This document shows positions 3,683-55,997 of a DNA stretch of 64,000 bases, piece after piece; positions within the stretch are counted from its first letter, which is position 1; the number at the start of each line of letters is the position of its first letter. The notes beneath the pieces were generated by a model, which did not search any database, was not told the origin of the DNA, and saw only the letters and a program-made list of their open reading frames with translations. The stretch comes from Crambe crambe (lineage: Eukaryota; Porifera; Demospongiae; Poecilosclerida; Crambeidae), in contig OZ004586.1 in the NCBI GenBank assembly GCA_963924555.1, positions 2,046,001-2,110,000 on the forward strand, given 5' to 3'. The translations under genes and the position numbers were made by a program.

Positions 3683-9361
<5,679 letters not shown>

Positions 9362-26700: not shown

Positions 26701-26749
26701 GCAATGGTCATAAAGTGTACTAGAGAATTATTTTTTTTCTTTCCACATT

Positions 26750-27567
26750 TTGCATAGCAATAGATTCATACTCATGTGTACACACTATAAAGTGTATACT
26801 GCATAAAATTTAGTGTACATTGCACACCTAGACTAGTGTGTATAGGGACAATTCAATGTACAATGCACACCAGACCTAGATCACCTACTAGGCTAGTGTG
26901 TAGGCTATTGGGAGATTTTAGTGTAGCTATAACACTTCTGTTTTTACAGTATTAGCTATACATATTTTTTTCCTGATTTCACTTATTACAAAGAAAATTT
27001 TAGCTATGATATTGTGCTCTTTCATGCTATACTCCAAGATTTGTGCCTTTCAAAAAAACAAACAATGAAAACAAACAACAATAATAAAACAACAACAAAA
27101 ACAATAACAAAAAACAACAACAAAAACAACAACAAAAAAGCAAGCATTCAACCCACTCAATATCAATCCAGCTAGCTACTAGAATGAGACTTTGCATAAA
27201 ACGAACTCTTCTCAATGAACCCAGCAGCCAATCTTTTTAGTTATAGCTTGTAGTTAGCTATGGCTATGTAGCTACTGGTCTCTTTCTTCCTAGCTGGCAC
27301 TGAGCCTTACAATTGAACATTGGATCCAACAACATTTCAATAATGCATCAATAAAAAATTATAGTGATTACATAATTATAGTGCTAAAGTTAATGCAAAG
27401 TCCCCAACATGATACATTGCCTGATGCACTTCCTCAATCACGAGCATGATTGGCTTTGATTGCCCCATAACCGCTTCCTGGATAGCAGGCTATAAAATGG
27501 CATGCTACTAGACATTGCCTAGTATATATTTTTTCATTGTCACATTCATTTTGCTGAATAACCAATT
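26750..27567. other. Intergenic sequence upstream of X2
   Basis: No gene is seen. It holds CACACTATAAAGTGTA-type and GTGTACATTGCACACC repeats (also at 47700-47820 and 50800-51310), the A/C-rich tract near 27055-27140, and the conserved X upstream region, which contains TTGCCTGATGCACTTCCTC and a TATAAAATGGC box 68 bases before the X2 ATG. Confidence 0.5.
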
Positions 27568-29311
27568 ATGTTATTGCTACTGGGTCAGGAGTCCTCTGAA
27601 ATGGCGTCTTTCACCAGAGAATTTGCTAACAATCAGCTGAAAGCACATGCAATGGAATTGTCTGCTATAGATCAACAGCTGGAAGAGTTTGAAATGAATA
27701 TACTAAATGAAGATACTTTCAAACAACTGTTACCGAAAATGGACGAGACGACACCAATCCTCCTTGAAAGGGGGTTTTCTGTTGGGATTCACCAAGAAGA
27801 GCTGAAAAAGACAATCCAGGAGAGAAATATGGCTATCTTCATGAAAGATTGCCGTGCTGGTGATTTGAAAAATTACACACCAGTTAGTCCTGGTGGAAAG
27901 TATGTTGCAGTGAAAAATAGGGAAATATTGGTGATAGAATATCCAGATGAAGCTGAAAAAATAAAGACGAGTTCACAGTCCTTATCTGGTGAGTGTAGTG
28001 GAACGATTCAGCATAATGAAGAAGAAGAGCATGAAGATGAAGATGGGAAAGAACTGGGGCATGAAGATAACAGTGGGGATGACGAGGAAGAAGAAGTGGA
28101 CAGTTGTGATGAAGATGAAGTGGATACTAGCGAAGAAGAAATCAGCAGTGATAAAGAGGAAGGAATAAAACGTGAAGATGAAGATGAGGACGTCAAAGAA
28201 AAGAAGGACAGTGATGAAAAGTGTCTGGCTCGATTCCTATTAATGGACGAAGAAAGTGTATGCGATGAGCTAAGTGAGCAAGAATCAGATTCTGATGAGG
28301 ATGACAAAGAAGAGAATGGTGAGGAAGAATCAGACTGCGATGAAAAAAATCGGCCTCGATTCCGAATTGGCTATGACTATGATGAGCCAGGTGAATTTGA
28401 GGATACGCAGCTTCTGTGTAAAGGTACCGGGCGTTCACGCCGTTGGCACAATACAACAAAGAGTGCGGCAAAACGCGCAACAAAGCGTGCTAACCGTCGC
28501 GCTAAATCTGTAAAATAATTATAAGAAACATCAGTTTAGTAGCAGTCAGTCATATAGGGATGTCAAACTCTCCGAAAAAAGTACACCAAATGGTTCATCC
28601 TCGTTCTGTACTTTTCGAGTTTCATGGGAGGCAACTGCAGAATGCAAATGCATCACATTTCAGTCCATCGATATAGGAATGCGTGGAGGCATGATGCACG
28701 ATAAATCTTCCTTTCGAGGTTACTTCAATGATAATCTGAGTATACATATCATTCCTGGGCCAAATGGAACTGAAGAGGACCATCCTAAACTTGATGGCTG
28801 GACTCGTACAGAATTCTGCCCTAGAATCACTTCTCACCCAACCACATATACGCATGGAGAAGAAATAGATTGTGGACTGAATCTATGTGCTGACAAAACA
28901 GGGTTACAGTGCAGTGCTAGTATTGCACACCGTCGAAATAAGACTAAGGAAGTAATAATTGACGACTTTTCTGTTCACAATAAAAATACAGATGATAGTA
29001 TGACAAGTTGGACTTTTTATTATACTGTCATGGATGAAGGAAAGAAATGGAAGAAACACTTTACCAGTACTAACAGTGTGAAAGAATTAGCTAAAGCAGC
29101 CAAAACCACTCAGGTTTTCTCTGTGAGGGCCAAGTATGAAAGACCGGCTAAAGATGGTGAAGAACCAGCTAATGAATGGGTTGAAAATATGCACTGGACT
29201 TTTCGAATGGAGTCTGTATTTCGCTTTTTGAAAAGAGACAAAATGAATTTCCAAAAAAGAGAGCTCCATGAAACCCTCGTACATGAAGAAGAACTGATGA
29301 TATCTATATAG
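27568..29311 (+). pseudogene. Family X copy 2, interrupted by a one-base frameshift
   Basis: Nearly identical to X3. A single-base difference near 28510-28520 (AAATCTGTAAAATAATT against AAATCTGAAAAATATT) shifts the frame after residue 316, and the remaining 210 codons stay open in another frame. The first part keeps the head, acidic block and basic patch; the second keeps the conserved C-terminal domain. This is either a very recent pseudogene or an assembly error, because no other indel separates X2 from X3. Confidence 0.75.
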
Positions 29312-31404: not shown

Positions 31405-31607
31405 CTACTGTGCAGCCAACCACTCCTTGGCAGCCTGTCTGTCCCGCTCCAACCACTTGACATTCAGACGTATGGCCTCACAGTTTTGCTTGACAATCCT
31501 GTCTGCCATTGGCCAGCGATTCTCTGCAAAAAACTTCTCAATTTCTGTAGCACGTTCTTCAGAAACAAATCCTGAAGTGGATACCTAGAGAGAGAGGAAG
31601 AACGGAA

Positions 31608-31652
<45 letters not shown>

Positions 31653-34600
31653 CTTGGTCCCTTACGTACATCAATGATTCTAGCCAACAGGAACTGTCCT
31701 TGGAATCGCTCCTTTAGTTGCGTCCACTTCTCCATCAGAAACTTCCACACCATGTCTCGGGAAAGTGGACAAGAGTTATTGGCAGAGAAAAGCAGGATGT
31801 AGCAGTTATTGGGACGCACTTTGTCCTATAGGTCAAACATACGTCCTAGTAAGATATACTGTGGTCACTCAATTTTCAAACACACTACCATTTCCTTAAA
31901 AATGACAGATTCCCCCCACCCAGCTCTAAATACATATACCATTGTCACATGACAAAGAGTATGTCCTGATTAATATCATGTCCTATAATTTATGAATATT
32001 ATACTGTACTACAAAGTATGTCCTGATTATAATTAGTGAATATCCGAGTTATATGTCCTGTCCTATACTTGCTGCAACTTACTGAAAATATGAGGTCCAG
32101 ACATTTCTTGGTAAGGAGCTCAGTCTTGCCACAGCCCAAGGAGCGATAGATTCTTGATTTCTCCTCGTCAGAATCACTAGCGTCGTTAAGCTGCGTATGT
32201 ATGTATGTATGTATGTATGTATGTATGTATGTATGTATGTATGTATGTGTATGTATGTATGTATGTATGTATGTATGTATGTATGTATGTATGTATGTAT
32301 GTATGAAATGAAACCAGTCAATTAGGAATAAGCTTCTTTTTAGTATTCACCTAACCCCTTGATCATTCGCTATAACTTTCTCAATTCTTAACCAAATTTC
32401 TAGTTTAATGCATCAACAGAGAGCTGATTATCCACTCTCTCTGCTGGTATCTGAAATTTGAAATTTGGTGAAAGTTATAGTGAATGATCAAGGGGCAAGG
32501 TGAATGCAAATAGACTTTAATTATTATGTTGACTTCAGCAACGAGGAATTCCTGGTTGATTATAATCAAGAAAGACTGTAATTACAATGTCTTCTCAGAT
32601 TTCCACTTCATCATAAGTCAATTACCTTTCATGGGCCTCTGACATTAGCTGTACAACCACTATTGGGAAGAGAGGCAGTCTCTGAATAGGGCGGTCTCTT
32701 AATAAGGGCATCTCTTGATAAGGGCAGTCTCTTAATAAGGGTAGTTTCTTAATAAGGGTGTCTCTTAATAAGGGAAGTTTCTTAATAAGGGTGTCTGGAA
32801 GTTTCTTAATAAGGGTGTCTCTTAATAAGGGCAGCCTCTTAATAAGGGTGTCTCTTAATAAGGGCGGTCTCTCTTCACTGTATTATTGCCCCTGGGTACA
32901 ATGCACCTGTTATGAGAACATCTCCTTCTATTAATACAAATATTGTATATTCTAATTATAGCACACTAACTTCAACAAGTTGGTTGAATGTGGCCTCATC
33001 ACCATTGGCAACACAGATGGAGAAGACAGCAGTCTTGAGGTCAGGATGTATGGAGTCACCACCAGAGAAGTGACTATTGAACTTCTTCTTTGCTTCGTTG
33101 ATGGTTTCAGGGTGTTCATACTTGCCCAGCTGGTTGATCACGAGACTTCGCAGCATCACATCCAGAGGACCTCAAGACAAAACAAAGGTCAAAAGGTCAA
33201 ACTAGACTTGTAGAAAGATGATTGGCCATAAGCAAAAAAAAGTAGGTCAGAACTCCATCCCATACGAAGCATTAACAACAATGACAACAACAACGACGAC
33301 AACAATAACAACAATGACAACTACAACAAAACTGGTTGGTCAGTTCCATAGAACGGTCAGTAATCAAGTTATTTGAGTGAAACCTTTCAATCAGGACTGA
33401 AAAGTAGTTTCAATGCATAATATATTGATAAAATAAATTAAATTCCATACCAGGGATATGCACTTCTAGAAAACAATGATCTAAAAAGAAGGTTCAAGCT
33501 TACCATCTGTGTCCTTGGCATCCCATCCAAGTCTAGTGATGGAAGGCTGGAACATCTTCAGGGCATATTTCCTGAAGCTCTCGTAGAAGTCCGTGTAGGA
33601 GAATAGCCGTGCAAAAGTGGAGAGATTGGAAACTAAGCTCTCCCACACTGTGTATGACTCTTCCTTGGAAAATGCTGCCAGCAAGCGCAGCACGTCAACC
33701 GTACTACCCACACCAGCACGAGCCTGTCGTAAACAAGGAAACATAATATGCTTTGAAGTTTATTATATTGATGACCCTTTACCTTATTACTATTAAGAAC
33801 GTTTATTACACTGACGACCCTTTACCTTGTTACCATTAAGCTAACCCTTTGAATAATAACGGACAAACTTTGGGACCCAACCTTTTGTCATTTGTAGAGA
33901 GGCTGTCCTCTTTTGGACGCTGTTTTTTATAGGGTGTATATACAAAAGTACTTTTAGATTATCCTTTGTTGTCTCCCTTATCAAAGGTTCAAGTGGTAGG
34001 TCTATCATAGGACTGAGGAAAGCTATGTTGCAATAAAGCACTAACCAGAGCAAAGGCATCATTCTGCAACCCCAGCCTATCCTGTGCGGAGAGGGTGCCG
34101 TCCTTGAGAGCTGGAAGAAGAGGAGAGAAGAGATCGGAGGAGTACGATACACGATAGAACCCTTGACGACCGGGATTCACCTAGAGATTGCAGGGAAAAA
34201 AATCAGATTGATTAACAACCATTCCTATAGCCTTGTTTAACCGTTTAACAACACCCCAGTTTGCATACCAGTATCCAGTCATCCGGCCCCACCCCTTCCA
34301 CGGTGACAGTGTCAGTTGGCTTATCTAGGATGAACCTGAGGGCCTCTGGATTCTTCTTGGTTGCTATTGTCACAGGAACGAGCCACAACATGGAACCAAA
34401 ATCTGGAATGGAAAAAAGCTCACCACATTCAAAAATATCATGTATGTACTTCCGTACCTCCCATGCAGCCATCAGCACAAAACTTCTTCTGAGAAATTGT
34501 TAACACTCTGTTCTCCCCCTCCTACAGTAATAGATCATGTGAGTATCATGTGACTTCATCTTGCATCACTAAATTTAGCACATACTTGTTTCCCTTCCAC

Positions 34601-36331
34601 TGATAGCACTGGGTAGCCCATCTGCTTGGTCCAAGTGGACATCACCTTGGCAACAGGCTTATTGCTAGTCTTCTCCAGGGCATCCCAAAGATCCTCTGGA
34701 GAGGGAAATTCCAATTAAAGCACATCATTCAAGTGTATGCTTAGCGGTCATGGAACAGACTCATAAAAACTACCATCAAAATCAGCATAACACATAGCAA
34801 TCTACTCATCTTTGTTTAGTCCAATAACAAGATATTACATGCAAACACAATTTTACATTCGATCAGTGGGTTACCTGTGCTGGCATTCTTGTATGCAAAT
34901 TTCTTGAGATAGTTTCCAAGACCCGTACGAAAGTTCTACAGTCAAGCATTTGCCATTAAAATTTAACACTTGCTGTGCATGTGACACAAGTACAATGTCC
35001 CCAGAGCGCGCTAGCACGGCGCAGCACCACGCTACTATAAAGCTTAGACTAAAGTAGAAAGACTTCAAATCAAGCTCTAAAGCTAGATATAGTCTTGCGA
35101 GGGTCTGGCTCAGCTAGCTAGTGCACTGAGAGAATCCAGTACCAGTGCTAAGGTAGGCTTTTAAGCTTATGCGCTTGGAATAATGAACTAACTAAGCTAT
35201 TTTCAATATCTTACTCGACTCTAGCTATAATAGTTCGAAACTCAGCCCATCCTGCACTGACGATCTCGTGCGCGATTGATTACGCACATGCGCAGTGACA
35301 CAATTTACCACTCTACATTTTTTTTCTGGGGACAACCCTGGACAACCCTACATATGTACGTACCTCAGTGCCGATCCAGTCGTGAAGCATTCGTATCACA
35401 CACGACCCCTTGGCATAAGAAATGGTGTCAAAAATCTCCTCCACTTCAGCAGGTGATCCAACAGGGACCTAAAGCAGCAGTGTGGTGATAGAACAAGATA
35501 TAAAGTGTTGCATAAAAGCTAGACGTAAGCAGAACTAGATGTAAGCAGGGTTCTGTCCAAAAGTAGTAGAAAAGTTGTTCTCCCAATGATGACTATGCAG
35601 GACACTCCGAACAAGGACAAGGACAATTTATATACACTCTGTACAAAATAACCTCCAAAAGAGGACAACCTTCTCTACAAAGGATAAAAGGCTGGATCCC
35701 ACGTATGTCCATTATTCAAAGTTCTACAGTAGAACATCTAAGAAAGAATAGTTTCTGGGGGGGCTGATATAATTATATGTATGCAAATCTAAACCGCTGT
35801 CTTTGCCACATAGAACTTTGCAATGATGTTGAAATAAGAGACTCAATTTCATTGGCAATGCATAGCAGGCAGATGTGCATTGCTCGAATCTGATAGTACT
35901 AGTTTTATGGATTTGAACCCACTGACCTCTATGGGATGGGAATTTGAGAGGGCATCAAGTGACTGGGCACTGGCATACTCCCGACTCAGGAAATTGGTCC
36001 AAATCTCGAACTCGGGATGGGTGTGGTCGACGCAGAGATATTCGATCCATGTAGCAAATCCTTCGTTCAGCCAAAGGTGGGTCCACCACTCCATGGTCAC
36101 CTGGATTGAAGTCACACGATCGTCACATGGCTATCATATGACCAAATCAACCAACCAAGTTTCCAAACCACTGGTGAGCTAGCTCGTGGCCAACGACCAA
36201 AGCAACCAGCTGCTTAGTGATGGCAGTGGAGTTGGCTGGGTCAACCAACAGAAGTCGTTCCCTGCAAATCAGAAATATCACGAGTCAGTTAGTTAGGTAA
36301 AGGTCATTCTTGTTCAAATGGTCTAGCTACT

Positions 36332-36377
<46 letters not shown>

Positions 36378-39300
36378 GGGGGGGAAGGGGGGGCAAGACC
36401 AGGGATAAAGTTGGAGGTCAAAGTGAGAGGGAATTGGGTAGACTAAGGTTCAGGGAGGGCAGGGGGAAAGAAAGATGAAGAGAAGGAGAGGGAACTGACC
36501 TGTAAGTGACCAGTCCCCAATTCTCCATGGCTCCAGCTGCAAAGTCAGGAATGGCTATCAGGTCCATCTTTGGTAAAGGGTAGGCCACGTCGAAATAGTC
36601 CCGATAGAAGGGCAGTGTTTTTATTGCCACCTGCATGCAATGAGGAGGTTATCATGATAAACCACAGTGGGGTAGACCCCAACATGATAAAACTATGTGT
36701 GTACCCTGTATGGTTAGTCTAGTTAAACCACTTTCACATCACAAACAGAACTACAAGTCTACATGTAATGGGAAAATCAATGTACCAATGCAAAAACTGC
36801 AAGCCATATAGCCCATACAAGAACACCTTTTGATTTGTTTTTCTTTCTTTACTTGGTATGTAATTCTCTTTCTTTCTTAGTCTTTCTTTCCCACTGAAAA
36901 ATTGTCTATGTTGACACTCCCGACCTACCTACCCTTTCCCCTTGACTTACATCCAGAGCAAACTTTCCCTGCTCTGCTTTGCCCACTGGCGTGTAGACCC
37001 TCACCAACACACCATTTGAGTCAGTGCCTTCCACGTAGTCAAACTCCCCGACGACAAAGGCAAGGAGGTACGAAGACATCACGGGGGAACGAGCAAAGGT
37101 CAACTTCTTCAGATTATCTGGAAGTTCTTCTTCTTTAGTTACATTCTATTACGTATAAGTTAAAAGGTCACACAATGAAACCTTCGATAGAAGTGGACAA
37201 ACCTCTTCACAAAGGACAATCTAAAGATACAATAAAATAACCTCCAAAAGAGGACAACCTCTCTACAAAAGGACGAGAGACTGGGTCCCATTATTCAGAG
37301 CTTCTACTGTGAATATCGATAGGTTAAAGAGCTCAAGGAGTTTCTGAATTATAAGCCACTTCAAGTATCAGCTGAATGCAATTCAGGGATCCCACTGGGC
37401 ACAATAATCAGCCGCTATCCACACATCTGGCCCTCCAGAGTGCAAAAGGTTATCATTTATCTCGCTATCAAAGTTCACACAAGGTTATCATAAATTTTGA
37501 ATCTATTACGGAAATTGGAAACATTGTGGGGCGAACCTGATCTTCTTTCAGGTTACTACAGAATTATTTTGAGCAGCAATAAATGTAAGCATGCTCAAGG
37601 TCATCACTAAAAAATAGATTCAGTATAAAATGAAATCCCTCAGTTGCATGAATATGCCACCTTACCATGTTTGAAAGGGCTACCCTGTCCTTAGGGACAA
37701 TGAGGACCACATCGAAGGAAGCCTTATGTGCAGGTTCGTCCCAGCAAGGGAGGGCCCTTCGAGCATCTGCAGCTTCAAACTGAGTCACAGCAGCATAGCG
37801 CTCCTCCTTGGGGTTGTTTGGGGCTGTGTATTTGGACCGGTAGAACCCGCGCATCTGGTCATTGTGAGTCCCAGTGTACTCGATGTTCAGTGTAGTTTCT
37901 CCCACAGCCAAATCATTCGGGACATCCAAAGTCAATGTCTCTGCATCCTTGTCCAAGGTCCATTTGGCATCTACAGTAAGATGAAAACATGAAGGATCAC
38001 CATATGAAACAAAGAGAGTGAAGCCGCAGAGCTAGAAATAAGACATTCAATCTGATTGGTCATTATAAAGATTTGGTCGGACATTCAGTATCCTATAATA
38101 CTTAAAACTCTGAAATTTGCCAAGAAATGGCTGGCCGGAAAGTGATCCATCACACACAACAGTTTTTCTAGCTCTGCTTCTTATCAGAAACATAGCAGGC
38201 TAGCGTAAGCTGCCTACTATCGACCACTACATATTTGACTTATCATATCTTTGTCCCTGAAGGTCGCAGAGGACTGCAACTTGCACTGTCAGAAAGGTCA
38301 TGACCTCGTCTTTACAGATATAGCAAATTTGACATTCGTTTAAATAGAATGAACTTTGTATAGGCAATATTGCATGCTATACTCAAAATTTTATTATCGA
38401 CGACCGATACCTACTATCGTCCGACCATACAAATTTGTATGATAAATTATCGACCACTTTAACAGAAATCGATCATATCTCTGGATGTGTACCACTACAG
38501 AAAACTGGACAATACTATTTCATTTTATATTATCTAACACACATACAGCCAAAAAAATAGTCAAAATTAAAGAATTAATATATCCACTACATCTGCTGGA
38601 ATGATCGAGTTCCATTATATCCACTACATCTGGTGGAATGAGATCCACCTAGCTATATACATCTGTTGGGATGATAACCTGCACCAACCCTCGCCATTAA
38701 TTTTAATTAATAATATAGCTTTATAATAAAATAGTTCAGTTCAAACAAAAAGGACAAAATCGCTCTGCACCATTTTCATCGATAGAAACATCCTCCATAC
38801 ACCTCTCGTGCACCCAACGATCACATGCGCACATCACCCACTCTTCACCATCAGCACAGAAGCTCCCATAGCAAAATACACATTCATAAGCCTCCTCTTG
38901 GTCACTGTCGGGTGTTTCAAGGCAAGGCTCAGAAGCAGTTCCTTGTACTGGGAGGTCAATGGTGGTAACATTGTCATGACCAGGGTCACCAGGGTTACCA
39001 CAACTAGAGGTACTGGCACTATTATTAGCAGGATCACCAGAATTATTCCCTTTGCTCTTGGAACGACCTCTTCTTTGGGGCTGCCTTTTCTTGTTAGCTA
39101 TCGCCTTCTGCTGGCGCTCAAGACGTTCCTCCTTTTTCTTCTTCTGTAGCTCCTCCCTCTCCAGTTTACGTCTCTTGCGTACCCTCATACGCTCTTCTTT
39201 CTCTTCTGCTTCTTTCTCTTTCTTCCTTTTCTTCTCTTCTAACATGTCCAAACATTCTTTGCTAGTAAGAACTGTGGCACGCCCTGTCTTTCTAGTACTC

Positions 39301-42300
39301 TTGGAGTCTTTTGGAATGGGAATAAGATATTTGCTTAAAGGAGACCCAAGATGCAATGCAGACACATTTGGGGAAATGGGTGCCAATGGTGAACGTCCCT
39401 GTGAATTTGATGGACTAACTAAATCGGCTGAATTCATAGGTGGAGTTTCTGGCACACTAGTTTCAGGTGATGAGAATAGAGGTGGTGACTCAAATTCAGG
39501 TGGAGTATCTTCAGCCAATGGTGATGAACTTGAGGTACTAGAAGTTGAATTGGAACTGGCATCAGAAGTTGAACTACTTGAGGTTTGTGATGAGGAAGAG
39601 GAGGAGCTTTGGGGTGGAGTTTCAGAGGAAGAGCCACCAAGGTGAGACTCTGCTAGTCCAGTTGGAGTAGATTCGATGGAGCAAAGTGGATCAGCAACAG
39701 TTAGTGCTTCAGGATGCATAATAGATAGCCACTGCTCATAGTGATCGTCATAGAGATCATATCCTTCTTCAAAACGTCGAGAAAACAAAGTTTCTTCTTC
39801 ATTGGAAAAAACTGGAGTGACCTTTGGACTTTCACTGGCAGAGTCCTTGCTGCCAGCACCAGGTTCGGTGGTGGAATTCACCTTTGAATTTGTGCAGTTG
39901 TTCTTGTCACACCGTATGTCCATACCCTCAGCATCATCACAATGAGGAAACCGTTTCTTGACACTCCCAGGATCAAATGGAATGATGCCTGCACGACGAA
40001 ACCCAGCACAAATTGTTTCAGGTGTACAGGTCTTCATCCAGGCCTTTGCGAACAACTCACAAAAGTTGTATTTGGTAACAATTCGACCTGGAGCAGCCTG
40101 GTAATATTCATGACATACATGACCCCAGTTGATCTTCAGAGGCCCAAAGAAACTTACATCAAGGGGCTGCGCCTCATGTGTAGTATGAGGCGGGAGGCAG
40201 AAAATAATGATTTCGTGGTCTTTCGCAAACTTGATGGTCTCAGGATCATAGTGAGAACTATGACCATCAACTAAGAGTAGCAATGGACGTCCTGGAACAG
40301 CGTGCAAGAGAAAATGTTCAACAAGCCATCCATGAAACAGGCCTTTGTTTGTCCATCCTGTGTCGCTCAAGCCATACCGACTGCCAGGTACTTCACCACG
40401 AGTCCACTCATAGTTCAGCTGCTTGGCATCAAAGATAATAAATGGTGGAAGCGCCTGTCCTGTCCCACTGCAGCAGCCAAGGACAGTAATTTGTCCCTTG
40501 ATCCCAGCACACCTATAGCGAACCTTCTTTTGTCCTTTTGCTGCCAGAACTTTTGGTGGCTTCGGATCCAATGGTATACCGCTTTCGTCCATATTGTATA
40601 TCCTTTCAGGACTATCTTTAAAGTCAAATTCCTCAAAGATTTCTTTCAGAAGATTAAAATAGTGTGTCAAATTTTCTTGACTTGTGGCCCTCATTCGAAC
40701 ATGTCCAGTTGCATCTCCAGAGCGAAGAGAGAGCTTGGGGTGACGTAAACGAAATTTTTTAAACCAACCATCACTGATTCGAGACTTACGCAGGAGCCCT
40801 TTATCAACAGCAACTTTCTCGACCATGGATTTAACTTGGCTTCTGGTCTTCCCATAACCAAGTTGGCTTGACTTAATAAGATATGATTCTAGCTCCATCT
40901 CTTCATCTTCAGTGAGATAGGAAGAACGGCCAGGCTTATTACCATCCACTACTCGTCCAGATAACCTATCTTTTAGAGTAGATGGAGGTACTCCATGGTC
41001 TCTAGCTGCCCTATTTATGGAGACGGAAACACCCGATTCAACAGCTCTGACAGCAGCTTCCATCTGCATTCTCGTCCATTGCATACGCTTTGCTGGCCTT
41101 CGACTTAGACTAGATGACTCTTCTGGCCTTGAACTAGGTAGGTTTGTTGGCTTAAAGCCGCCTTTCTTCTTCTTTTTGGAGTATCGTGGCATGCGCCTGT
41201 AATGACAAAAAAATAACATCAAATACTAAAATCTACAAAATGAATCTTTAATATAGCTAAATTCAACTACAACTACCTTGAATAAGCACTGATTGCACAA
41301 AAAAAGAGCAGAATAAAGACAGCAGTAACAACTACAAATTATCACATGTCCAACATTCCGTTAATTCTCCCGTACACTTCAACTGATATTCGGATACTTT
41401 GTTGGTCGATAATAGATCTGGAAATGGTCGATAGTAGTACCCAGTCGATAGTAGATTGCTTACGCTACACACAGTACAATGTTACATCTCTAATGCACCA
41501 CAGGGTGACTGCACAGTAAGTGGGCAGTTGTTTTTCACTTCTTCTGATCAATTATCAGAATCACATACCCTGTCCTCCTATACTTGCTGATGCAATTTCA
41601 ATCTCGGCAGCATTCAGTTTTACTTGTTTGGTCGACTTAATCACCTATACACATAAATAAATACACACACATACAAGCAGTACCAAGCTAGAGAAACACT
41701 ACATATAGCTAAAGTGTTGGCTACCTCCGCAGTGATCTCCAGTTTTCCTTTGAAAATGAATGTGGATAGATTTGGCTGGAGCTCCACTTTGTAGTTACGA
41801 GGAACTACATCGGTGGGAAGACGCTGAAAGGGCTTCTTCTCTTCTGCCATATTCCTTACCTTGGACTCATCAGAGATGTCAGTCCCAAGTCCAGAAGTTA
41901 ATATGCTTCCATCGCATGTTAAACTAGTGGCCACACTTATTCCAGTCACATCTCTGATCATACCAAACGCTGAGTCAGCATCATCATCACCGCTATTCAC
42001 TTGAAGGGCAGTAGTCATTGGTTGCAGAGTAGGGGAGGAAGGATCTGGACAGGGAGAAAGATATTAAACTTGACCATACTTGTGTCTGAACTGTCACTGT
42101 TTTCACCTTCACTTTCAGCATCAGCTCTAGCTAGATGCACAAAATAGTTTCACTGTTACCATAGCAATGGCAAATATCACAGGCACATAATTATACTGAT
42201 CATGATTCTCATGCTCTAGCTATCAGTAGCTATACCTGATTCACTATTTTTAGCTGCCTCTTCATCATCTTCATGTTCTGTTATTTTTCCTGCTAGAGAT

Positions 42301-45178
42301 ACGAGATTCAATGATTTTTCTCCATAGGTGATGTTGAGGACTCCCATGTTTCTCAGAGCTTGCTGCTCTTCTCTGGTTAGCTTCTGGATCATCTCTTCTG
42401 CACTGGGCAAGGCTCTGAATGTCAGTTGGATGCAGCCGAGATCTGTTTTCAGCAATCTCAAGTGATGTTTACCTATTGCTAAGTTGAGATCAGAGCAAAG
42501 CTTTTTCAATTCATTCACTGTCATTGTTTTGAAGTTGCACTCCTCTATTTTGAATACGAGGGTCTTTTCATTTTCCTCCTTGTCACCAAACATGTTGCTA
42601 GGACACTCACAGACTCTGCGTCTTGCATACTTATTGAACTTAGTTATATATGCCTTCATTTCCAAGTTGAGTTTATGTTCTTCTTCTTCAAAAAAGCAAC
42701 CAATGAGTAACTCAATCAAAGTATAGTCAATGAATGACCAATGTTTCCCTTTCTTATCAAATACTTTATCAATTGAGTCACATTCCTTGAATACTTCACA
42801 GAATCTTGGATCATCTTGGGAAAAAACATTAATTACTTTTTCTGCAGTTATTCCTGACTCTTTCAATGCCTCTTTTAGATGCAACTCAAGAGCTATAAAG
42901 CTATGCTTTATTTTGGTGGTATCTCTCATCAAAGAATAAATGTAGTTTGTTCGCACATGTTCGGACATGTTCTTAGAGAGAAATGGAAAGAGAGTAACAT
43001 CTGCAGAAATACTAGTTTTTCTAAACATGTAGCCAGGATTATACTGTTAGCCTCCCTATATGAACCAGCTGAAAGAGCTATACTCACTGCACATGCTATA
43101 GCTACATCATTGTTTTCTTCATATGATTGTTCCATGACAATGATGTTAGTTGAGTTTAATAAAACAATGGCATGCAGGGTTTCATACAGGAATTTGGATA
43201 AAGGGGGACTATGCATGTGGGCATGCTTGTGTGAGGAGTTTAAGACACATTCAGTAATTGGTTAAGGGGGGAGGGGGGGAAGTTTCAATCAGAGGGGGGA
43301 TCTCCCCCCTTTCCCCTTCCGCTGAAACCCTGGTATGATTATAGCTTGGTGAAACATAATTAAAAGTGAACAAGTATGTATTTTTTCCAAGGCACCGAGG
43401 TGATGGAGGTACGTTTCACACACAATGATGCATAATGATGCGTATCAAGCATGTGCATTAGCTCTAGATACGAGGTCTACTACAGTACTAAGGACAAACA
43501 GACAGACTCGGGCTCAAGCTTGCAGTCACTATGCAGTAACTCCATACCATGAAGAGAGTGCCATCTTTGCCAACAAATTATGACATGCAGAGAACTGACT
43601 AAAAGATAGCAGTAAACAAAAACAACAGAAATTTCGAACTAGTAACTATTTGAAGTGCCAAAGAGAGAGCCATGGTGAAGGAGAATGACTTTAAGGCTTC
43701 CAAACAATGAGAATCCAGTACACATACTTCAATCAAGCTATGCGTGAGAATAACCATTCAAAACGGCAGTTCGAAAGCATTGAACAGCAAGAATTAGCCT
43801 AGCTAGCTGTGTAAATACTAACCTTACTACAATAAGCCATGTTGCTCAGTGTGCATTATTTAGAAAGTTTAATTATAATCAAGGTTGCACTGAAGTGCCG
43901 AGGCATTCCTAGTCTTTAAAAGTGGGAAATATATACTTCATAATTATTATGGTTCTTCCAGGCCCACAATCGATAATGAATAGCTATTCCAAAATACCTG
44001 ATTGTTGAGAAGTCTGAATATATGGCCGAATATAGTTTGCTTCAATATCCTTGGCAAGAGCAGGGAGCTGTACTGGACGTGCATTTAGTGCAGAGGAAAG
44101 ATTCTTCCATGTTGGTTCTGAACCTTGACCTGCCAGCCAATCTATCAGCATCTGACTGAAGCACTCTGCTGGATTGTTACTGCACTTTTTTCTTATTGCT
44201 TCAAGAGAGGTAGCATTCAGTTCCAACTCCACCCCCAAATCAAACCACTTTACTTGAGCATCCCAAATACAATTCCGCACTTTTTTCAGGTCATCCATCA
44301 CCAACGGAGCTAAATGACATGATACAATGATTAATGGCTAGCTGAGTTCACAAGAGCAGTCCAGTATATATATAGTAACTGACTAAACTTAACTTCCAGC
44401 AGTACCTACTTCACTGAGTATTATTTATTTAGCTATCATCATCATTATTGCTAAAGATAATTGCAGCGAGTGAGCGAAGCGAGTGGGCTGACTCTCAGGT
44501 CATGACTCATTGAAATTTTAAATATATATATATCTAGGTCTACACTCCAAAATGCCCCAGGCATACTTAGTATGTGTCTCGTGCAATAGTAGCGGCGCAT
44601 GCTCCAGTTGCAATTGCTTGATTGATTTCTACATCCTTTGTATATAGCATGGTGGATAGTAGGGCTAGGCTTATCTAAGTGGATTGTAGGCACTAGACAT
44701 ATCCAAGTGCTTTGTGGTAAGTACTTAGCTTTCTATGCATGCAGCTGCCTGCCACTTAGCTACATAACACAACAGCAAAGCACAAATGAACTATCAGCTC
44801 AACATTTCTACAGCCTTTTGGGCAGCAGGCACAAGAGGCTTATCTAAGCGGTTTGTAGGCACTAGGCTTATCTAAGTGCTTTGAGGTAAGCATGTATGCA
44901 GCTGCCTGCCACCACTTACATGACTCTAGCAATATCAAGCACTGAAGCCTATCAGCTACTTTAATTGCTCACTGTCAAATGCTGCACATTGCTACAGATA
45001 CTCAACAGCAAATGAAAATCGTTGAAGAATACTTGCTTGCTCGCTCGCTGTCAACTGAATGTTGAACATTGCCCTAGTAGTGGGATTGGCAATTGGGGGT
45101 GTTACCGTGTATAAGGCTGTACAATAAGTGAGATAATATTGTCATTACAGAGTAATGGCAAAACTTACTCTCTGACAT
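31405..45178 (-). CDS. NPEPPS: DEATH domain - Y-shared domain - puromycin-sensitive aminopeptidase fusion (AP1)
   Basis: Twenty-two minus-strand exons join in phase into 1305 residues: 45169-45178, 43998-44309, 42236-43000, 42080-42130, 41725-42044, 41569-41644, 37666-37970, 36951-37145, 36500-36630, 36156-36261, 35927-36100, 35364-35468, 34875-34935, 34586-34695, 34458-34521, 34269-34402, 34046-34180, 33504-33723, 32971-33170, 32083-32190, 31670-31825, 31405-31584. Residues ~8-100 form a DEATH domain ([24 protein letters not shown]). Residues ~108-360 are homologous to the family-Y domain. An acidic/Ser linker follows. Residues ~445-1305 are a full M1 aminopeptidase: GAMEN near 711, zinc site H747-E-L-A-H751 and E770 (HEXXH-x18-E). 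The family trims peptides in the cytosol. MAEEKKPF at ~445 aligns with the start of ordinary NPEPPS, so an internal promoter making the enzyme alone is possible. A pogo element sits in intron 6. Confidence 0.85.
31613..31650. repeat. (GA)n microsatellite in the last AP intron
   Basis: A GA tract (CT on the coding strand), close to the acceptor of the last AP exon. The copy in unit 2 (about 55960-55995) is two bases shorter. Confidence 0.9.
32195..32304. repeat. (TATG)n microsatellite in AP intron 19
   Basis: A tetranucleotide repeat just upstream, in the transcribed direction, of the acceptor of AP exon 20. The paralogous tract is at 56540-56649. Confidence 0.95.
32345..32505. mobile_element. 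Short hairpin MITE in AP intron 19
   Basis: The ends ATTCACCT and AGGTGAAT enclose an almost perfect ~26-base inverted pair (CCCCTTGATCATTCGC to its mirror GTGAATGATCAAGGGG). The duplicated unit carries it at 56690-56850. A related older copy surrounds the MITE in DNAJB11 intron 7. Confidence 0.75.
32685..32875. repeat. Short tandem repeat TCTTAATAAGGG in AP intron 19
   Basis: About twelve units of roughly 16-18 bases built on TCTTAATAAGGG(T/C)(G/A). The copy in unit 2 is at about 57030-57220. Confidence 0.9.
36332..36393. repeat. Poly-G tract in AP intron 9
   Basis: About 62 bases, almost pure G on the + strand (poly-C in the AP pre-mRNA). The unit-2 copy (60677-60780) is about 42 bases longer and broken by scattered A. 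Both lengths could be assembly estimates. Confidence 0.85.
38203..41465 (-). mobile_element. Pogo-type DNA transposon, 3263 bp, TA target duplication
   Basis: Inserted in AP intron 6. The ends are GCGTAAGC on the left and GCTTACGC on the right, each followed inward by CTACTATCGAC in inverted orientation. Extra copies of that 11-mer or close variants lie inside both ends (near 38415, 41428 and 41443) and may be transposase-binding sites. TA flanks both ends. The second unit has the empty site (GCAGGCTACACACAG near 62586). The offset between the units changes by 3265 bases, exactly the element plus one TA. It encodes one transposase on the AP-sense strand. Confidence 0.93.
38736..41192 (-). CDS. 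Pogo-family transposase with C-terminal PHD-like finger
   Basis: Intact single-exon frame of 818 residues from [10 protein letters not shown]; an upstream ATG in frame (41222) is less likely. Domains: a Psq-type helix-turn-helix near residues 35-85 ([24 protein letters not shown]), a CENP-B/Tc5-type DNA-binding helix-turn-helix near 90-165, then a DDE superfamily nuclease domain with acidic residues in [16 protein letters not shown] and [10 protein letters not shown] (the last pair spaced DD35D, as in pogo). A Ser-rich segment and a highly charged Lys/Glu region follow. The end is a Cys4-His-Cys3 PHD-like finger (CVFC, CACD, WVHERC, CPFC). It would cut and paste the surrounding element. The intact frame suggests recent activity. 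Confidence 0.92.
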   Translation of the reverse strand: MPRYSKKKKKGGFKPTNLPSSRPEESSSLSRRPAKRMQWTRMQMEAAVRAVESGVSVSINRAARDHGVPPSTLKDRLSGRVVDGNKPGRSSYLTEDEEMELESYLIKSSQLGYGKTRSQVKSMVEKVAVDKGLLRKSRISDGWFKKFRLRHPKLSLRSGDATGHVRMRATSQENLTHYFNLLKEIFEEFDFKDSPERIYNMDESGIPLDPKPPKVLAAKGQKKVRYRCAGIKGQITVLGCCSGTGQALPPFIIFDAKQLNYEWTRGEVPGSRYGLSDTGWTNKGLFHGWLVEHFLLHAVPGRPLLLLVDGHSSHYDPETIKFAKDHEIIIFCLPPHTTHEAQPLDVSFFGPLKINWGHVCHEYYQAAPGRIVTKYNFCELFAKAWMKTCTPETICAGFRRAGIIPFDPGSVKKRFPHCDDAEGMDIRCDKNNCTNSKVNSTTEPGAGSKDSASESPKVTPVFSNEEETLFSRRFEEGYDLYDDHYEQWLSIMHPEALTVADPLCSIESTPTGLAESHLGGSSSETPPQSSSSSSSQTSSSSTSDASSNSTSSTSSSSPLAEDTPPEFESPPLFSSPETSVPETPPMNSADLVSPSNSQGRSPLAPISPNVSALHLGSPLSKYLIPIPKDSKSTRKTGRATVLTSKECLDMLEEKKRKKEKEAEEKEERMRVRKRRKLEREELQKKKKEERLERQQKAIANKKRQPQRRGRSKSKGNNSGDPANNSASTSSCGNPGDPGHDNVTTIDLPVQGTASEPCLETPDSDQEEAYECVFCYGSFCADGEEWVMCACDRWVHERCMEDVSIDENGAERFCPFCLN
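43260..43997. other. AP intron 2
   Basis: This interval lies between the DEATH exon and the shared-domain exon of AP. Apart from G/A-rich sequence at 43262-43315 I see no gene, RNA or clear repeat in it. AP intron 1 (44310-45168) is likewise non-coding; it contains a short imperfect duplication around GCTTATCTAAG and GTAGGCACTAG (44668-44890). Confidence 0.5.
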
Positions 45179-45373
45179 CTTGATGTCACCACACAGGGAG
45201 AGGTTGAGGGTGGCCACCAGATGAGGAATTCGAAGGTATTTCGAGTGGGGGAAGATAAAGTGTCTGGATGAGGTGTGGCCGACTTGACGAGGTACGAGCC
45301 CCGCCCCCTAAAAAAGCAGTCTGGCCCAGGCCCGCGAGACTAGCTCTCAAATTCGGGCCTATGATACACACTC
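45179..45373. promoter_or_regulatory. Short interval between AP1 (minus) and truncated Y3 (plus): candidate AP promoter
   Basis: Only 195 bases separate the AP start codon from the point where Y3 homology begins. The interval is GC-richer than its surroundings and contains GCCCCGCCCCC (a GC-box on the minus strand). It is the obvious AP promoter and may act in both directions, because Y3 has lost its own promoter and start codon. The Y promoter block seen at 23041 is not present here. Confidence 0.5.
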
Positions 45374-47700
45374 TATGTTAGCGGCAGTGCCGAGTATTCA
45401 ACGCTCCTCGAACTCACATCAACACTTGTTAAGGAAATATCTGGAGATATTGTCTCAGTTACTAATGAATTAGTAGCGAAGGGTTTGGTCCCACCGTCAA
45501 GGATGACTTCAGAAAAGGATTCACAGACAAAGGCCACTGAATTAGTACACGAAGTCATCAATAAAGTTGAATTATATCCAGAGAAGTTTGATGTGTTTGT
45601 TGGCGTCCTTGAAGGTTCTGCTCATTTTGAAGATATAGTTGAATTGATGTGCAAGAAACGAGATCAACTGAAAAGTGCACAACAGCTGGCAGGTACATAA
45701 TTTATTACCACAAGTAGTCAGTAGCTAGATAGCTTGATCCTTAGTTATACTGGACAGGTGTCACAGCACTCCTCACCCTTTCCCTCCTCTACGTACTGGC
45801 TTCATTCATTGATGCCATAACACCCTCCTACAATTATTTACAGGTGATGATTTATCTCTGCCTTTGTCACCTGAAATTCATGAAGATCTCAAACAGCAAC
45901 TTGAGCATAATCTAAGGGATATCAAGAAACAGTTTGCACATTTCGTCTCTGCTATTCATGAATCTATTTTTGACCAGGACATAAATCCAGATAAATTTTG
46001 TTTTTTTCTTCTGAGTCTGAATGCATTTGATCATGATAAATACCCAAAGCTCCTTTCTGATGTTGAGAATGAACTAAAAAAAGAGACCACAGTTAGTGGC
46101 ATGTTCAATTTCTTGATACAATACAAATTAACTTCTTTTTTGAACTACGATATTATCCTGAGTATTATTGATAAGTATGGCACTGAAGGTGATAGAGAGA
46201 GATCTGAAGAATATGAATTAAAATTGGAGGAATATATCAAGAAGCATAAAATATCAGAATTTGCTGAAATTATTGAACCAGATTTACTGCAAAGGAGTTT
46301 TGATGCAAGGGTGAAAATGGTTCTCAAAATTGATGTCGAAAAGTGTGCAGAGTTAGCCAATCTCCGTGACCTAAAACTTGCACCAGCTGATGCTTTGAAA
46401 CTAAACTCATCTGCCCTATTTCTCTATAGTGTTAGAGATGGCTGTGTGGTTGTGACATTTCTCATTCCAGTATCAACTGCAGAAGTTGTCTTCTGCGAAA
46501 GCAAAGAGTTCACTGTGAAACGATTAGAAAAATTTAGTACATTTTCTCTTCAGTGGTTGGAATGTGGTGATTTCCAGTGGTTCAATTCAAAGGTTAGTTA
46601 TTTGTACCATTCTAACTTCAAGCATGTTTAGTTGACAGCAGTGCAACGAAAAATGAACTCACAACATATGAACTATTGATTGGTTAATGGTTGTAGCCAT
46701 GCACCACAATACTGCTTTCACCTTGGGCTTAAAGTGAAGTTTGGGCTCAAGCTCCACATGATTGAAGAGGTAGCTATGCCTGCACCTCTCAGCATCGGTC
46801 ATGTAGATTTTGGTCTTACAAAATTTTAAGTGAATTCCAAGAGTATTATTCATGGGAAAAGTTTAAGTGACTTGTGCCTTGAGTATTATAATTACCACTG
46901 TGTGTCACTGAGCCATACAATAATAATATTATTATATGTAGGTCGTTGCTAATAATATGAGAGGATCAGATGAACTGAATGACGAAGACAAAGAGGAAAT
47001 AATCATTAAAGTTCAGCCAAACTTGTCACAAAGTTCAAGAGTTCAGCCAAATGAAGAGATAGCGCTAAAAATTATACCTCGGAAGGCTAAAGTTTGTATT
47101 TTGTTATCTGCATTTTATTTCACTTTACTACTTTTTCTCTCTACCTCAACAATGCGTTCAAGTCATGTGGGAATAATAATGCGTTCGCATTCAAGTAATC
47201 TGAAAATAGACATCTCAACAATGTGTGTGGAAATAGTGAAACAACAGAAACAATCTATACAACTGAACAAACATGTAAACAATATATTAAACAAGCAACA
47301 GCCACGCCTGTCGAGTATTGATTATAAATTCCTACAGCATATGAATTTAACAGAAACTCTTAGAATATTGAAATACAAAATTGAAAAACTCCTAGGTGAC
47401 TTAAGAGATAGGCTATCTGATGAGAAAATGGAGGCAAACAATGGGAAAATTTGTGGATTAAGAGTTGAAATATCAAAGCTCAGAAAAAGACTGGAAGTCA
47501 ATCTCAAGTCAAAAATTAGTTGGATAGGAGATGGACGATTCCAGAAAATCAGATGTGGCTGGTGGGGTTGGCGTAGATGTAGCTTGCGGACAACCAATAA
47601 AGAACGTTTACATATTCACAAAGAAATTGATGAAAGTTTACAGATCATTATCCAGATAGCAAAAGATACCGAGTACAGATGGAATAGTCTATGTACATAA
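45374..47700 (+). CDS. Family Y copy Y3, 5'-truncated at the start codon
   Basis: Exon equivalents are 45374-45692, 45844-46592 and 46942-47700, all in phase and free of stops. Homology begins at TATGTTAGCGGCAGTG, just after the position of the usual MATSR start. The upstream frame has a TGA, so the first usable ATG is at 45503 (MTSEKDS). This would remove about 43 residues of the CARD-like domain and give 565 residues. The shared domain, hydrophobic segment (VCILLSAFYFTLLLFLS), diverged repeat units and coiled-coil-like, basic tail are intact. A chimeric 5' exon from the AP promoter side cannot be excluded. It is functional only if expressed from a new start. Confidence 0.65.
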
Positions 47701-48080
47701 AATGTGTGATGTGAATGAAAATCATGTTCAATTTTGTGTACAATGCACACCTAGATCACCTACTAGGCTAGTGTGTGCATTGGGACATTTTAGTGTATAT
47801 AATATTATTATAATGTACAGTGTAGCTAGCTATACTATAATATTTTTTCCTGATTTCACTTATTACAAAGAAAATTTTACCTATGATATTGTGCTCTTAC
47901 ATGCAGATTTGTGCCTTTCCAAAAAAATAACGAATAACAATAAACCATTCAACCCAATATTAATCGAACTCTCCTCAAAGAGATAGTAATGAACCCAGCA
48001 TACAGCTCGTAGTTAGCTATAGCTATGTACTGGTCTCTTTTTTCCTTAATGAGGACCACCCCTTCTACAATTATTTACAG
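47701..48080. other. Y3 3' flank and left junction of the second duplicated unit
   Basis: No gene. 47700-47990 repeats X-upstream-type sequence (A-rich tract, GTGCACACC-type repeats). At about 48040 the sequence CTATGTACTGGTCTCTTTT (also upstream of X3, near 51610) joins ACCACCCCTTCTACAAT, which belongs to Y intron 1 (compare 23603). This is the tandem-duplication breakpoint. Confidence 0.7.
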
Positions 48081-50177
48081 GTGATGATTTATCTCTGCCT
48101 TTGTCACCTGAAATTCATGAAGATCTCAAACAGCAACTTGAGCATAATCTAAGGGATATCAAGAAACAGTTTGCACATTAATTTTCGTCTCTGCTATTCA
48201 TGAATCTATTATTGACCAGGACATAAATCCAGATAAATTTTGTTTTTTTCTTCTGAGTCTGAATGCATTTGATCATGATAAATACCCAAAGCTCCTTTCT
48301 GATGTTGAGAATGAACTAAAAAAAGAGACCACAGTTAGTGGCATGTTCAAATTCTTGATACAGTACAAATTAACTTCTTTTTTGAACTACGATATTATCC
48401 TGAGTATCATTGATAAGTATGGCACTGAAGACAATAGAGAGAGATCTGAAGAATATGAAGAAAAATTGGAGGAATATATCAAGAAGCATAAAATATCAGA
48501 ATTTGCTGAAATTATTGAACCAGATTTACTGCAAAGAAGTTTTGATGCAAGGGTGAAAATGGTTCTCAAAATTGATGTCGAAAAGTGTACAGAGTTAGCC
48601 AATCTCCGTGACCTAAAACTTGCGCTAGCTGATGCTTTGAAACTAAACTCATCTGCCCTATTTCTCTATAATATTAGAGATGGCTGTGTGGTTGTGACAT
48701 TTCTCATCCCAGTATCAACTGCAGACTCTGTCTTCTATGAAAATAAAGAATTCACTATAAAATAATTAGAACAATATAGTACATTTTCTCTTCAGTGGTT
48801 GGAATGTGGTGATTTCCAGTGGTTCAATTCAAAGGTTAGTTATTTGTAGTATTTTTATGAAATACTAGTGCCATTCTAACTTCAAGCATGTTTAGTTGAC
48901 AGCAGTGCAACAAAAAACTGAACTCACGACATATAAACTATTGGTTGGTAGCCATGCACTAACCTTACACAATACTTGGGCTTAAAGTGAAGTTTGGGCT
49001 CAAGCTCCACATAATTGAAGAGGTACATGTAGCTATGCCTGCACCTCTCAAGAAACCCAGCATCGATCATGTAGATTTTGGTCTTACAAATTTTAAATTC
49101 CAAGAGTATTATTTTAAGTCCGACATCTATCTCATGGGAAGAGTTTAAGTGACTTGTGCCTTGAGTATTATAATTACCACTGTGTGTCACCGAGCCATAC
49201 AATAATATTTTTATATGTAGTTCGTTGCTAATAATATGAGAGGATCAGATGAACTGAATGACGAAGACAAAGAAGAAATAATCATTAAAGTTCAGCCAAA
49301 CTTGTCACAACGTTCAAGAGTTCAGCCAGTGACCATTTTCCCAAACCATACTCGAACTACATCTTGGAAACAAAAGTTTGCATTTTTTTAATCTGCACTT
49401 TTTCTCTCCATCTCAACAATGCGTTCAAGTCGTGTGGAAATAACAATGCGTTCAAGTCATGTGGAAATAACAATGCGTTCAAGTCATGTGGAAATAACAA
49501 TGCGTTCAAGTCATGTGGAAATAATAATGTGTTCAAGTCATGTGGAAATAGCCATCTCAACAATGCCTTCAAGTCATGTGGAAATAGACATCTCAACAAT
49601 GCGTTCAAGTCATGTGGAAATAACAATGCGTTCAAGTCATGTGGAAATAATGCGTTCAAGTCATGTGGAAATAGCCATCTCAACAATGCCTTCAAGTCAT
49701 GTGGAAATGGTGAAGCAACTGAACAAACATGTAAACAATAATATTATATTAAACAAGCAACAGCCACGCCTGTCGAGTATTGATTATAAATTCCTACAGC
49801 ATATGAATTTAACAGAAACTCTGAAATTCAAAATATATCTAATTGAAAAACTCCTAAATGACTTGAAAGATAGGAGGCTATCTGTGGAGAAAATGGAGGT
49901 GATTAAGAGTTGAAATATCAAAGCTCAGAAAAAGACTGGAAGTCAATCAAAGTAAGATCAAGTCAAAAATTAGTTGGATAAGAGATGGACAATTCCAGAA
50001 AATCAGATGTGGCTGGCGGGGTTGGCGTAGATGTGGCTTGCGGACAACCAATAAAGAACGTTTACATATTCACAAAGAAATTGATGAAAGTTTACAGATC
50101 ATTATCCAGATAGCAAAAGATACTGAGAGATGGAGTGTTTACTGTGATATTATGTTTACTATAAATAAATATGGATG
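48081..50177 (+). pseudogene. Family Y copy Y4, lacks exon 1 and is frame-broken
   Basis: The duplication breakpoint lies in intron 1, so the CARD-like exon is absent. Exon 2 (48081-48834) has a five-base insertion near 48178 that shifts frame, and a CAA-to-TAA change at 48763-48765. Exon 3 (from 49221) has a stop near 49389 from a shorter T-run in the hydrophobic segment. The remaining tail stays partly open as MRSSHVEI repeats and a coiled-coil-like region. Y2 is the corresponding copy in unit 1. Confidence 0.85.
49417..49710 (+). repeat. Coding-derived minisatellite, ten units of 24-27 bp
   Basis: The unit reads ACAATGCG TTCAAGTCATGTGGAAATA and encodes TMRSSHVEI in the family-Y frame. Most units are 27 bases; a few have a 9-base spacer (GCCATCTCA or GACATCTCA). 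Y1 has one unit, Y2 three, Y4 ten, so it expands by whole codons. Confidence 0.92.
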
Positions 50178-50259
50178 AAATTATTGTGCCATCTTGAATA
50201 CATGAATTATGGTGATGACTTTCCCCCTCAGTGCTAGTATCCTCTAAACCCTATACAGA

Positions 50260-50735
50260 AATTCACGTTTTGATGTTGAGAATGAACTCAAAAAAGAGAC
50301 CACAGTAAGTTGTATGTTCAAATTCTTGATACAGCACAAAATCAACTTCTTTTTTGAACTAGCTATGATATTTAATATCCTGAGTATCATTGATACGTAT
50401 GGCACGGAAGACAATAGAAATAGAGATCTGAAGAATATGAATTAAAACTGGAGGAATAAATATATCAAAAAGCAGAGTTTGCTGACTGCAAAGGAGTTTT
50501 TGACACAAAACTGATAATGGTTCTTAGAATTAATATTAAAGGGTAGCCAATATCTGTGACCTAAACTCGCACTAGCCAATGCTTGCTTTGACCACTGAAA
50601 ATGACCACATTCCAACCACTGAAGAGAAAGGCACTAAATTGTTCATAGTGAGCTCTTTGCTTTCACTTCTGCAATTGATACTGGAATGAGAAATGTCTAG
50701 TCAGCCATCTCTAACACTATACAGCAGATGCAATG
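50260..50735. pseudogene. Relic of family-Y exon 2 with inverted tail, unit 2
   Basis: Counterpart of 25610-26700 without the foldback insert. The part to about 50535 is in + orientation with stops; 50590-50720 matches the exon-2 3' end on the minus strand. The inversion is therefore older than the duplication. Confidence 0.65.
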
Positions 50736-50871
50736 GTCATGAAGTACTAGAGAATTATTTTTTTCTTTCCACATTTTGCATAGCATTAGATTCATACTCA
50801 TGTGTATACACTATAAAGTGTACACTGCATAAAATTTAGTGTACATTGCACACCTAGTTAGGCCTTCGTAA

Positions 50872-51222
50872 ATTATGCTCAAAATTTTGCCTATTATTCT
50901 ATTCAAAAACTGTGCCCATTAGTGACTGAGGTGTAGCTATATAGCCACCTATTATTCTCAAATTATTCTCAAAATAATTAAAATTCTTTTCTGTAGTTGT
51001 ACTGTAACATACTCAGGTCACCAGTAGATCTATATCTTGGCATGGATAGTCACTGCTACTAGGCTCAGCCATACTAGCTAGTTAGCGTGTTAATTAGACC
51101 ATAGACTAGATCTAGATCTCTAGATCTGAAGATCCTCCTAAATTTAACCATGACATCATATTGTTCTCCTATTATTCTCAGTTCTTTTTGGTACCTATTA
51201 TGCCAGCATAATTTATAAAGGT
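50872..51222. mobile_element. MITE present only in unit 2
   Basis: The left end CCTTCGTAAATTATGCT is mirrored by AGCATAATTTATAAAGG on the right. Unit 1 (near 26830) runs directly from GTGTACATTGCACACCTAG to GTGTGTATAGGG, so this sequence is an insertion. The interior has repeated CCTATTATTCT motifs. No coding capacity. Target duplication is not clear. Confidence 0.7.

Positions 51223-55954: not shown

Positions 55955-55997
<43 letters not shown>

Follow-up and report, generated by a model that had tools for sequence, protein, structure and literature searches.

A putative in-frame fusion of a death-fold adaptor to a puromycin-sensitive aminopeptidase in the sponge Crambe crambe

Can a death-fold signaling unit take on an intact aminopeptidase as its effector, and does the genome keep a record of how the exchange was made? 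We addressed this question in a 64,000-nucleotide stretch of DNA from the sponge Crambe crambe (GenBank assembly GCA_963924555.1, contig OZ004586.1, positions 2,046,001 to 2,110,000 of the forward strand; hereafter the window), in which an earlier note had described a minus-strand gene encoding a DEATH domain fused in frame to a puromycin-sensitive aminopeptidase (PSA). Coordinates are those of the window and are given as window-equivalent where a feature lies beyond its end. Based on the gene model, the gene family, the junction, the intact catalytic motifs and a synonymous excess in the PSA exons near the junction, all of which were computed, we put at roughly 0.66 the probability that a member of an adaptor family was joined to a duplicated PSA gene by DNA rearrangement, with a stand-alone PSA gene persisting.

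A gene model joining a DEATH domain to an aminopeptidase

We rebuilt the fused gene, copy A, at 45178-31405 on the minus strand. The 22 exons, the GT-AG sites at every intron, the single frame and the phase-1 ends of exons 1-4 that the earlier note had reported were all reproduced; exon 5 ends in phase 0. The frame encodes 1303 residues, rather than the 1305 claimed, followed by a stop codon and without an internal stop, and an internal ATG said to lie near residue 445 is present but corresponds to residue 443. The encoded order is a DEATH domain, a domain of about 255 residues (the Y domain), an acidic linker from exons 4 and 5, and a full aminopeptidase from residue 443. The observation of a DEATH/aminopeptidase gene model is confirmed, and the in-frame fusion and the identities of its DEATH domain and of its full aminopeptidase with HEXXH-x18-E hold by Pfam and by motifs. 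The parts of copy A are as follows.

45169-45178, minus strand: exon 1 (MSE plus 1 nt), where the fused gene has its start codon; the divergent plus-strand open frame (45365) of a neighboring gene, one of the Y genes described below, lies 187 bp away.
43998-44309, minus strand: exon 2, DEATH domain (Pfam Death, 23.8 bits, cut-off 22.6).
42236-43000, minus strand: exon 3, Y domain of about 255 residues, with a helical-looking N-terminal part and a TRADD-N-like C-terminal part (from matches in the same genome).
42297-42566, minus strand: TRADD-N-like region with approximate bounds, read by eye as beta-alpha-beta-beta-alpha-beta, GC occupying the presumed b2-b3 turn (sequence read against PMC8195603; paralogue matches).
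42080-42124, minus strand: exon 4, acidic linker (gene model; paralogue alignment).
41860-42044, minus strand: adaptor-family part of exon 5, linker ending in DISDESK (paralogue alignment).
41854-41859, minus strand: surviving family 5' splice site AAG/GTAAGG (by donor score); read-through of 41859-41851 gives VRN.
41725-41850, minus strand: PSA exon 1, 42 codons, start of similarity to the stand-alone copy C (by comparison with copy C).
41569-41644, minus strand: exon 6, PSA, with a phase-0 acceptor usable by either donor (gene model; donor scoring).
36951-37970, minus strand: exons 7-8 (37970-37666 and 37145-36951), PSA N-terminal domain (gene model; Pfam).
36500-36630, minus strand: exon 9, PSA GAMEN motif (gene model).
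35927-36261, minus strand: exons 10-11 (36261-36156 and 36100-35927), HEXXH-x18-E zinc site (gene model).
31405-35468, minus strand: exons 12-22, remainder of the M1 domain, ERAP1_C domain and stop codon (gene model; Pfam).

On the PSA part, Peptidase_M1_N, Peptidase_M1 and ERAP1_C all score above their Pfam cut-offs, and both HEXXH-x18-E and GAMEN are intact. The best relative of known structure is human PSA (NPEPPS; PDB 8sw0 and 9o5k), with 1032 bits over residues 3-858 of 861, compared with 484 bits for the next-best M1 enzyme of known structure. A search with PSA exon 7 against a genome contig collection returned 17 loci at 42-57% identity, all titled as bacterial metagenome-assembled genomes, and these were not used.

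The N-terminal unit belongs to an expanded family with variable C-termini

In the sponge's own 143-Mb genome, the exon-3 domain is matched 144 times, some of the matches being pieces of one copy. The nearest paralogues are four on sequences C6 and C8 at 74-77% identity; a further 37, of which 34 lie on C10, are 55-65% identical. The notion that the 442 residues before the PSA are a chance open frame was rejected, as paralogues have conserved counterparts of exons 2 and 3 and of the linker.

To what are the other family members attached? We surveyed downstream domains for the best-scoring 43 of the 144 matches (copy A and copy B, a second fused gene, included, leaving 41 paralogues), using 37 of 151 ankyrin (ANK) matches and 11 of 42 PARP matches. 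An ankyrin exon lies on the same strand within 10 kb downstream in 34 of the 41 paralogues, and its acceptor, read in one paralogue, is in phase 0, matching the family donor. Elsewhere, a C8 paralogue has a PARP exon 4.9 kb downstream, a C6 paralogue is followed on its strand by sacsin-domain exons, with a PARP match 17 kb beyond, and in a C13 paralogue (C13:543001-547600) the open frame runs on without interruption into a GTPase-type domain (MMR_HSR1 just above its cut-off, AIG1 and GTP_EFTU below theirs). Apart from this same-frame GTPase, position and strand suggest that the downstream domains belong to one transcript with the adaptor. Another close adaptor paralogue, in C6:360001-367080, is followed by a second domain of Y type and by a coiled exon that includes a hydrophobic, glycine-rich stretch.

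In a tree of 13 exon-3 sequences selected from the loci examined, the PSA-bearing copy and three C6/C8 members form a group separated from the ankyrin-bearing sequences (split support 100), among which the GTPase-bearing copy nests; the internal order of the C6/C8 group has support of only 36 and 51. Exon 3 of copy A compared with its nearest relatives gives a synonymous divergence (dS) of 0.21-0.29 and a ratio of nonsynonymous to synonymous divergence (dN/dS) of 0.43-0.65, higher than the 0.25-0.34 obtained against the ankyrin group, which indicates that the adaptor part is less constrained among close relatives.

All seven copies tested, copy A included, pass the 22.6-bit cut-off of Pfam Death, two of them by only 0.1 bit, and a search of the DEATH domain against the sequences of solved structures in PDB gave 12 matches (E 0.2-0.61), none of them a death-domain chain. 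For the 255-residue Y domain no Pfam family scores above cut-off and an NCBIfam search gave no match; one PDB search returned one match (E 0.42) and another returned four (E 0.2-0.31), three of which are epsin ENTH. Pattern searches for relatives in genome and viral contig collections gave 89 and 52 matches, respectively, and no relatives. Exon 3 of copy A has no match to NCOA6_TRADD-N at E 1. Genome-wide, this family has three candidate places (E 0.14-0.145), all below cut-off and all within the C-terminal half of the exon-3 domain of the DEATH/Y family; two of the three, when rescanned, scored 17.5 bits against a cut-off of 22.5. GC at the presumed b2-b3 turn (compare the uS/uC motif) is invariant in nine aligned copies, with strands assigned by eye.

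The earlier note also held that this domain is shared with the neighboring Y genes. Homology is plausible (20-22% identity and 27 invariant columns in a five-sequence alignment) but stops short of proof: hhalign gives E 0.0063 with a probability of 5.9%, and tblastn (E 0.01) of the DEATH and exon-3 proteins against the joined stretch found only copies A and B and not the neighboring Y genes. The Y genes lie at 18667-29311 and 45365-53658 on the plus strand as several tandem copies, with a domain perhaps related to exon 3, and they also have a long acidic exon without a Pfam match.

The junction lies between the end of family exon 5 and the PSA start codon

The stand-alone PSA gene, copy C, is found beyond the window at about 76788-83866 (window-equivalent), 42 kb from the fused copy. 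Upstream of it, a divergent open frame encodes a glyoxalase-type domain and is probably a methylmalonyl-CoA epimerase. The similarity of copy A to copy C reaches no further than the PSA start codon (at 41850 in copy A and at 83866 in copy C), and by blastn nothing upstream of the copy C ATG is retained in A or B.

To place the junction on the adaptor side, we surveyed 20 loci, comprising copies A and B and 18 paralogues. The linker ends in TCCAAG/GTAAG in 16 of the 18 paralogue loci, several of these 16 being near-identical, and the motif was not found in the sequence stretch examined for the other two; it apparently serves as the donor for intron 5 of the family, and copy A was aligned with the 16 loci that have it. 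Copies A and B have GTAAGGA after TCCAAG, then two more bases and the PSA ATG, and the nine junction bases read VRN in frame. The break thus lies about 7 nt beyond the phase-0 end of family exon 5, and about 1 nt before the PSA ATG. The phase-1 ends of exons 1-4, of which the earlier note had remarked that this phase is favored in exon shuffling, were considered as the site of PSA attachment and rejected, as the join is a DNA breakpoint just past the family part of exon 5 (phase 0) and immediately ahead of the PSA ATG.

Coding changes near the junction are mostly synonymous

Over the 2586 nt of PSA coding sequence, copies A and C show 16 synonymous and 4 nonsynonymous differences. Exons 5-7 hold 15 of these 20, 13 synonymous and 2 nonsynonymous (dS 0.122, dN 0.005, dN/dS 0.04), and PSA exon 1 holds 2 synonymous and no nonsynonymous ones. 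The introns near the junction differ at 10 of 71, 35 of 270 and 26 of 497 aligned positions, with many indels in addition; the first value, for intron 5, becomes 29 of 80 under another alignment setting. Free drift of the fused lineage alone, at an assumed 3-5%, would have produced about 12-20 nonsynonymous changes in exons 5-7, compared with the 2 seen in both lineages together. Comparison of 30823-64000 of the window with the adjoining stretch reveals that PSA copies A and C are a mosaic, with a diverged 5' end and nearly identical exons 13-20, introns included. The near-identity of downstream exons and introns suggests gene conversion between A and C.

Copies A and B were rejected as a test of selection because they are too similar.

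The fused gene lies in a tandem array

The region is a tandem array of copies, of which the earlier note had described neither B nor C. Two further features of it are as follows.

55752-64000 in the window, continuing to about 66300 (window-equivalent), minus strand: copy B, the second fused gene, with 0 of 3912 coding differences from A.
38203-41465, minus strand: Pogo-like DNA transposon in intron 6 of copy A (DDE_1 and HTH_psq above cut-off, PHD/RING below).

Of 6262 aligned intronic positions, a single one differs between copies A and B (besides 44 gap positions, and with intron 6 omitted because of the transposon), and their aligned stretches, flanks included, are 99.1-99.7% identical; copy B is either very recent or an assembly duplicate of A. 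The transposon has the ends GCGTAAGC/GCTTACGC and a TA duplication. Copies B and C have an intron 6 of 333 and 319 nt, respectively, about 3.2 kb shorter than that of A.

Elsewhere in the window, a glycerol-3-phosphate dehydrogenase-type gene lies at about 5284-9182 (DAO_C above cut-off, DAO slightly under its own); at about 14126-16162 there is another, incomplete copy, 91-96% identical to it in aligned pieces.

Competing splice sites and other explanations

Several observations count against the fusion reading, and we set them out here together with the explanations that they favor. One is the surviving family donor. We scored donors with a position matrix built from 20 other donors of the same single gene (range 4.4-10.9). 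The family site AAG/GTAAGG scores 9.77, compared with 4.75 for the PSA exon-1 donor in copy A and 6.12 in copy C, and only one of the 20 training donors falls below 4.75. The family donor joins PSA exon 2 in phase 0, dropping 135 nt (VRN together with all 42 codons of PSA exon 1), so that the stronger site would take out PSA exon 1. Both choices keep the PSA frame, and two in-frame splice forms are predicted, of 1303 and 1258 residues, the shorter lacking 45. The completeness of the PSA N-terminal domain in the fused protein depends on this choice, which decides which protein is made. In the extreme case, itself overlapping with the fusion reading, the family donor would be used nearly always, and the 1258-residue protein, retaining the zinc site without the first 42 PSA residues, might be damaged or a regulatory pseudo-enzyme. 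We regard this as rather unlikely: PSA exon 1 has no nonsynonymous difference from copy C next to an intron that has diverged at 10 of 71 positions and by indels, although the exon-1 count is weak alone (p 0.05); the donor matrix, for its part, comes from one gene only.

A second explanation is that there are two separate products, with the adaptor ending early and PSA translated from its own ATG at 41850. This ATG is intact and is the start of the stand-alone copy C, and in all 16 motif-bearing paralogues an in-frame stop follows the motif within 5-8 codons. In an alternative reading of the family, the paralogue adaptors simply end there (VRSK-stop) and the ankyrin part is a separate gene. 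The frame, however, is open across the junction in both A and B, and no sequence 5' of the copy C ATG was kept in them by blastn, so a PSA promoter is not evident; we judge separate products improbable.

An assembly artefact, or a dead recent rearrangement without a product, is very doubtful, for although the near-absence of differences between A and B would allow one of them to be a false duplication or an allele, the 124-kb stretch has zero N, A and B differ by a whole transposon with flanks below 100% identity, and the PSA part near the junction has taken up its 13 synonymous and 2 nonsynonymous differences from C without a frameshift.

The remaining points concern the identity of the Y domain and the reach of the selection test. 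A sub-threshold SAP match overlaps part of the TRADD-N-like region (19 bits and E 0.0011 in copy A; 17.5 and 15.6 bits in two rescanned paralogues; cut-off 23.9), and the TRADD-N identity of the Y domain, itself sub-threshold, is not secure, the SAP match being as strong or stronger. Exons 8-22 are nearly identical between A and C and carry little information (3 synonymous and 2 nonsynonymous differences, dN/dS 0.19). The changes are unpolarised, so that the constraint may belong to copy C rather than to the fused lineage, and part of the A/C divergence may be older than the fusion. Finally, the evidence for the fused gene comes from genomic DNA.

A proposed origin and function

Under the fusion reading, a DEATH/TRADD-N-like adaptor member would have shed its usual downstream sequence, and a DNA rearrangement in this region of tandem duplication would have joined it to a duplicated PSA gene. 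Copy C probably represents the ancestral state, because PSA is, to our knowledge, normally a stand-alone enzyme without a death-fold extension. Because the fused copies lack the sequence that precedes C, their transcription would start from the promoter of the adaptor, which is divergent from a Y gene. Their product would be a cytosolic PSA tethered to a death-fold unit, and death-fold clustering could, by induced proximity, bring about broad-specificity N-terminal trimming at a death-fold assembly. Recruitment of the protease to a death-fold complex, as the earlier note proposed, would be a reasonable expectation. A more specific proposal, speculative and on balance unlikely, is a death-fold-gated N-terminal editor: DEATH/TRADD-N assembly would concentrate PSA on the N-termini of proteins or peptides in an immune complex, trimming would be an innate immune output, and the switch would be the choice between the two competing 5' splice sites left by the fusion.

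If the protein is made, an N-terminal exopeptidase is added to the death-fold effectors. The exchange of a variable C-terminal domain can rarely be observed as a step; here the unfused PSA coexists with the fused copies and with many sister adaptors that have other domains, and the junction records the replacement almost to the base, where the constant unit ends.

Comparison with known systems

The zinc and GAMEN motifs and the three M1 domains are common to human NPEPPS and the fused copy, which differs in that 442 residues precede the PSA start codon. In TRADD, a death domain is combined with a TRADD-N domain (PMC8195603); in the fused gene, by contrast, DEATH comes first and the enzyme after it, and the TRADD-N assignment is sub-threshold.

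The closest parallel comes from the sponge Amphimedon, for which the accessible text of Kaur et al. 2021 (PMC8195603) describes 357 NCOA6-clade TRADD-N proteins with one to three Death-like domains, TRADD-N and a variable C-terminus. Ankyrin repeats or SH3-LRR are the commonest C-termini, and kinases, MATH, SH2, PDZ, caspase, PNPase and HD also occur (PMC8195603). PSA or another M1 aminopeptidase is absent among the C-terminal domains named in that text, and a count of "aminopeptidase" at word start gave 0 occurrences in its main text (figures and source tables lie outside the count). A literature search combining death domain or TRADD-N with aminopeptidase, PSA, sponge or Amphimedon found no such fusion in titles and abstract openings, subscription papers being mostly uncovered. 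The earlier note's interpretation is supported in part: the class of Death/TRADD-N proteins with variable effectors is already known from Amphimedon (PMC8195603), and only PSA as the variable part seems to be unreported in the literature covered. The two systems are alike in an N-terminal Death-like unit, a linker, lineage-specific expansion and ankyrin among the commonest C-termini (PMC8195603); the TRADD-N-type domain of the Amphimedon proteins has a sub-threshold candidate counterpart in the Y domain, and the family of the fused gene has a Death-like domain by Pfam, the expansion and a C-terminus that varies among ANK, PARP, GTPase, sacsin and PSA.

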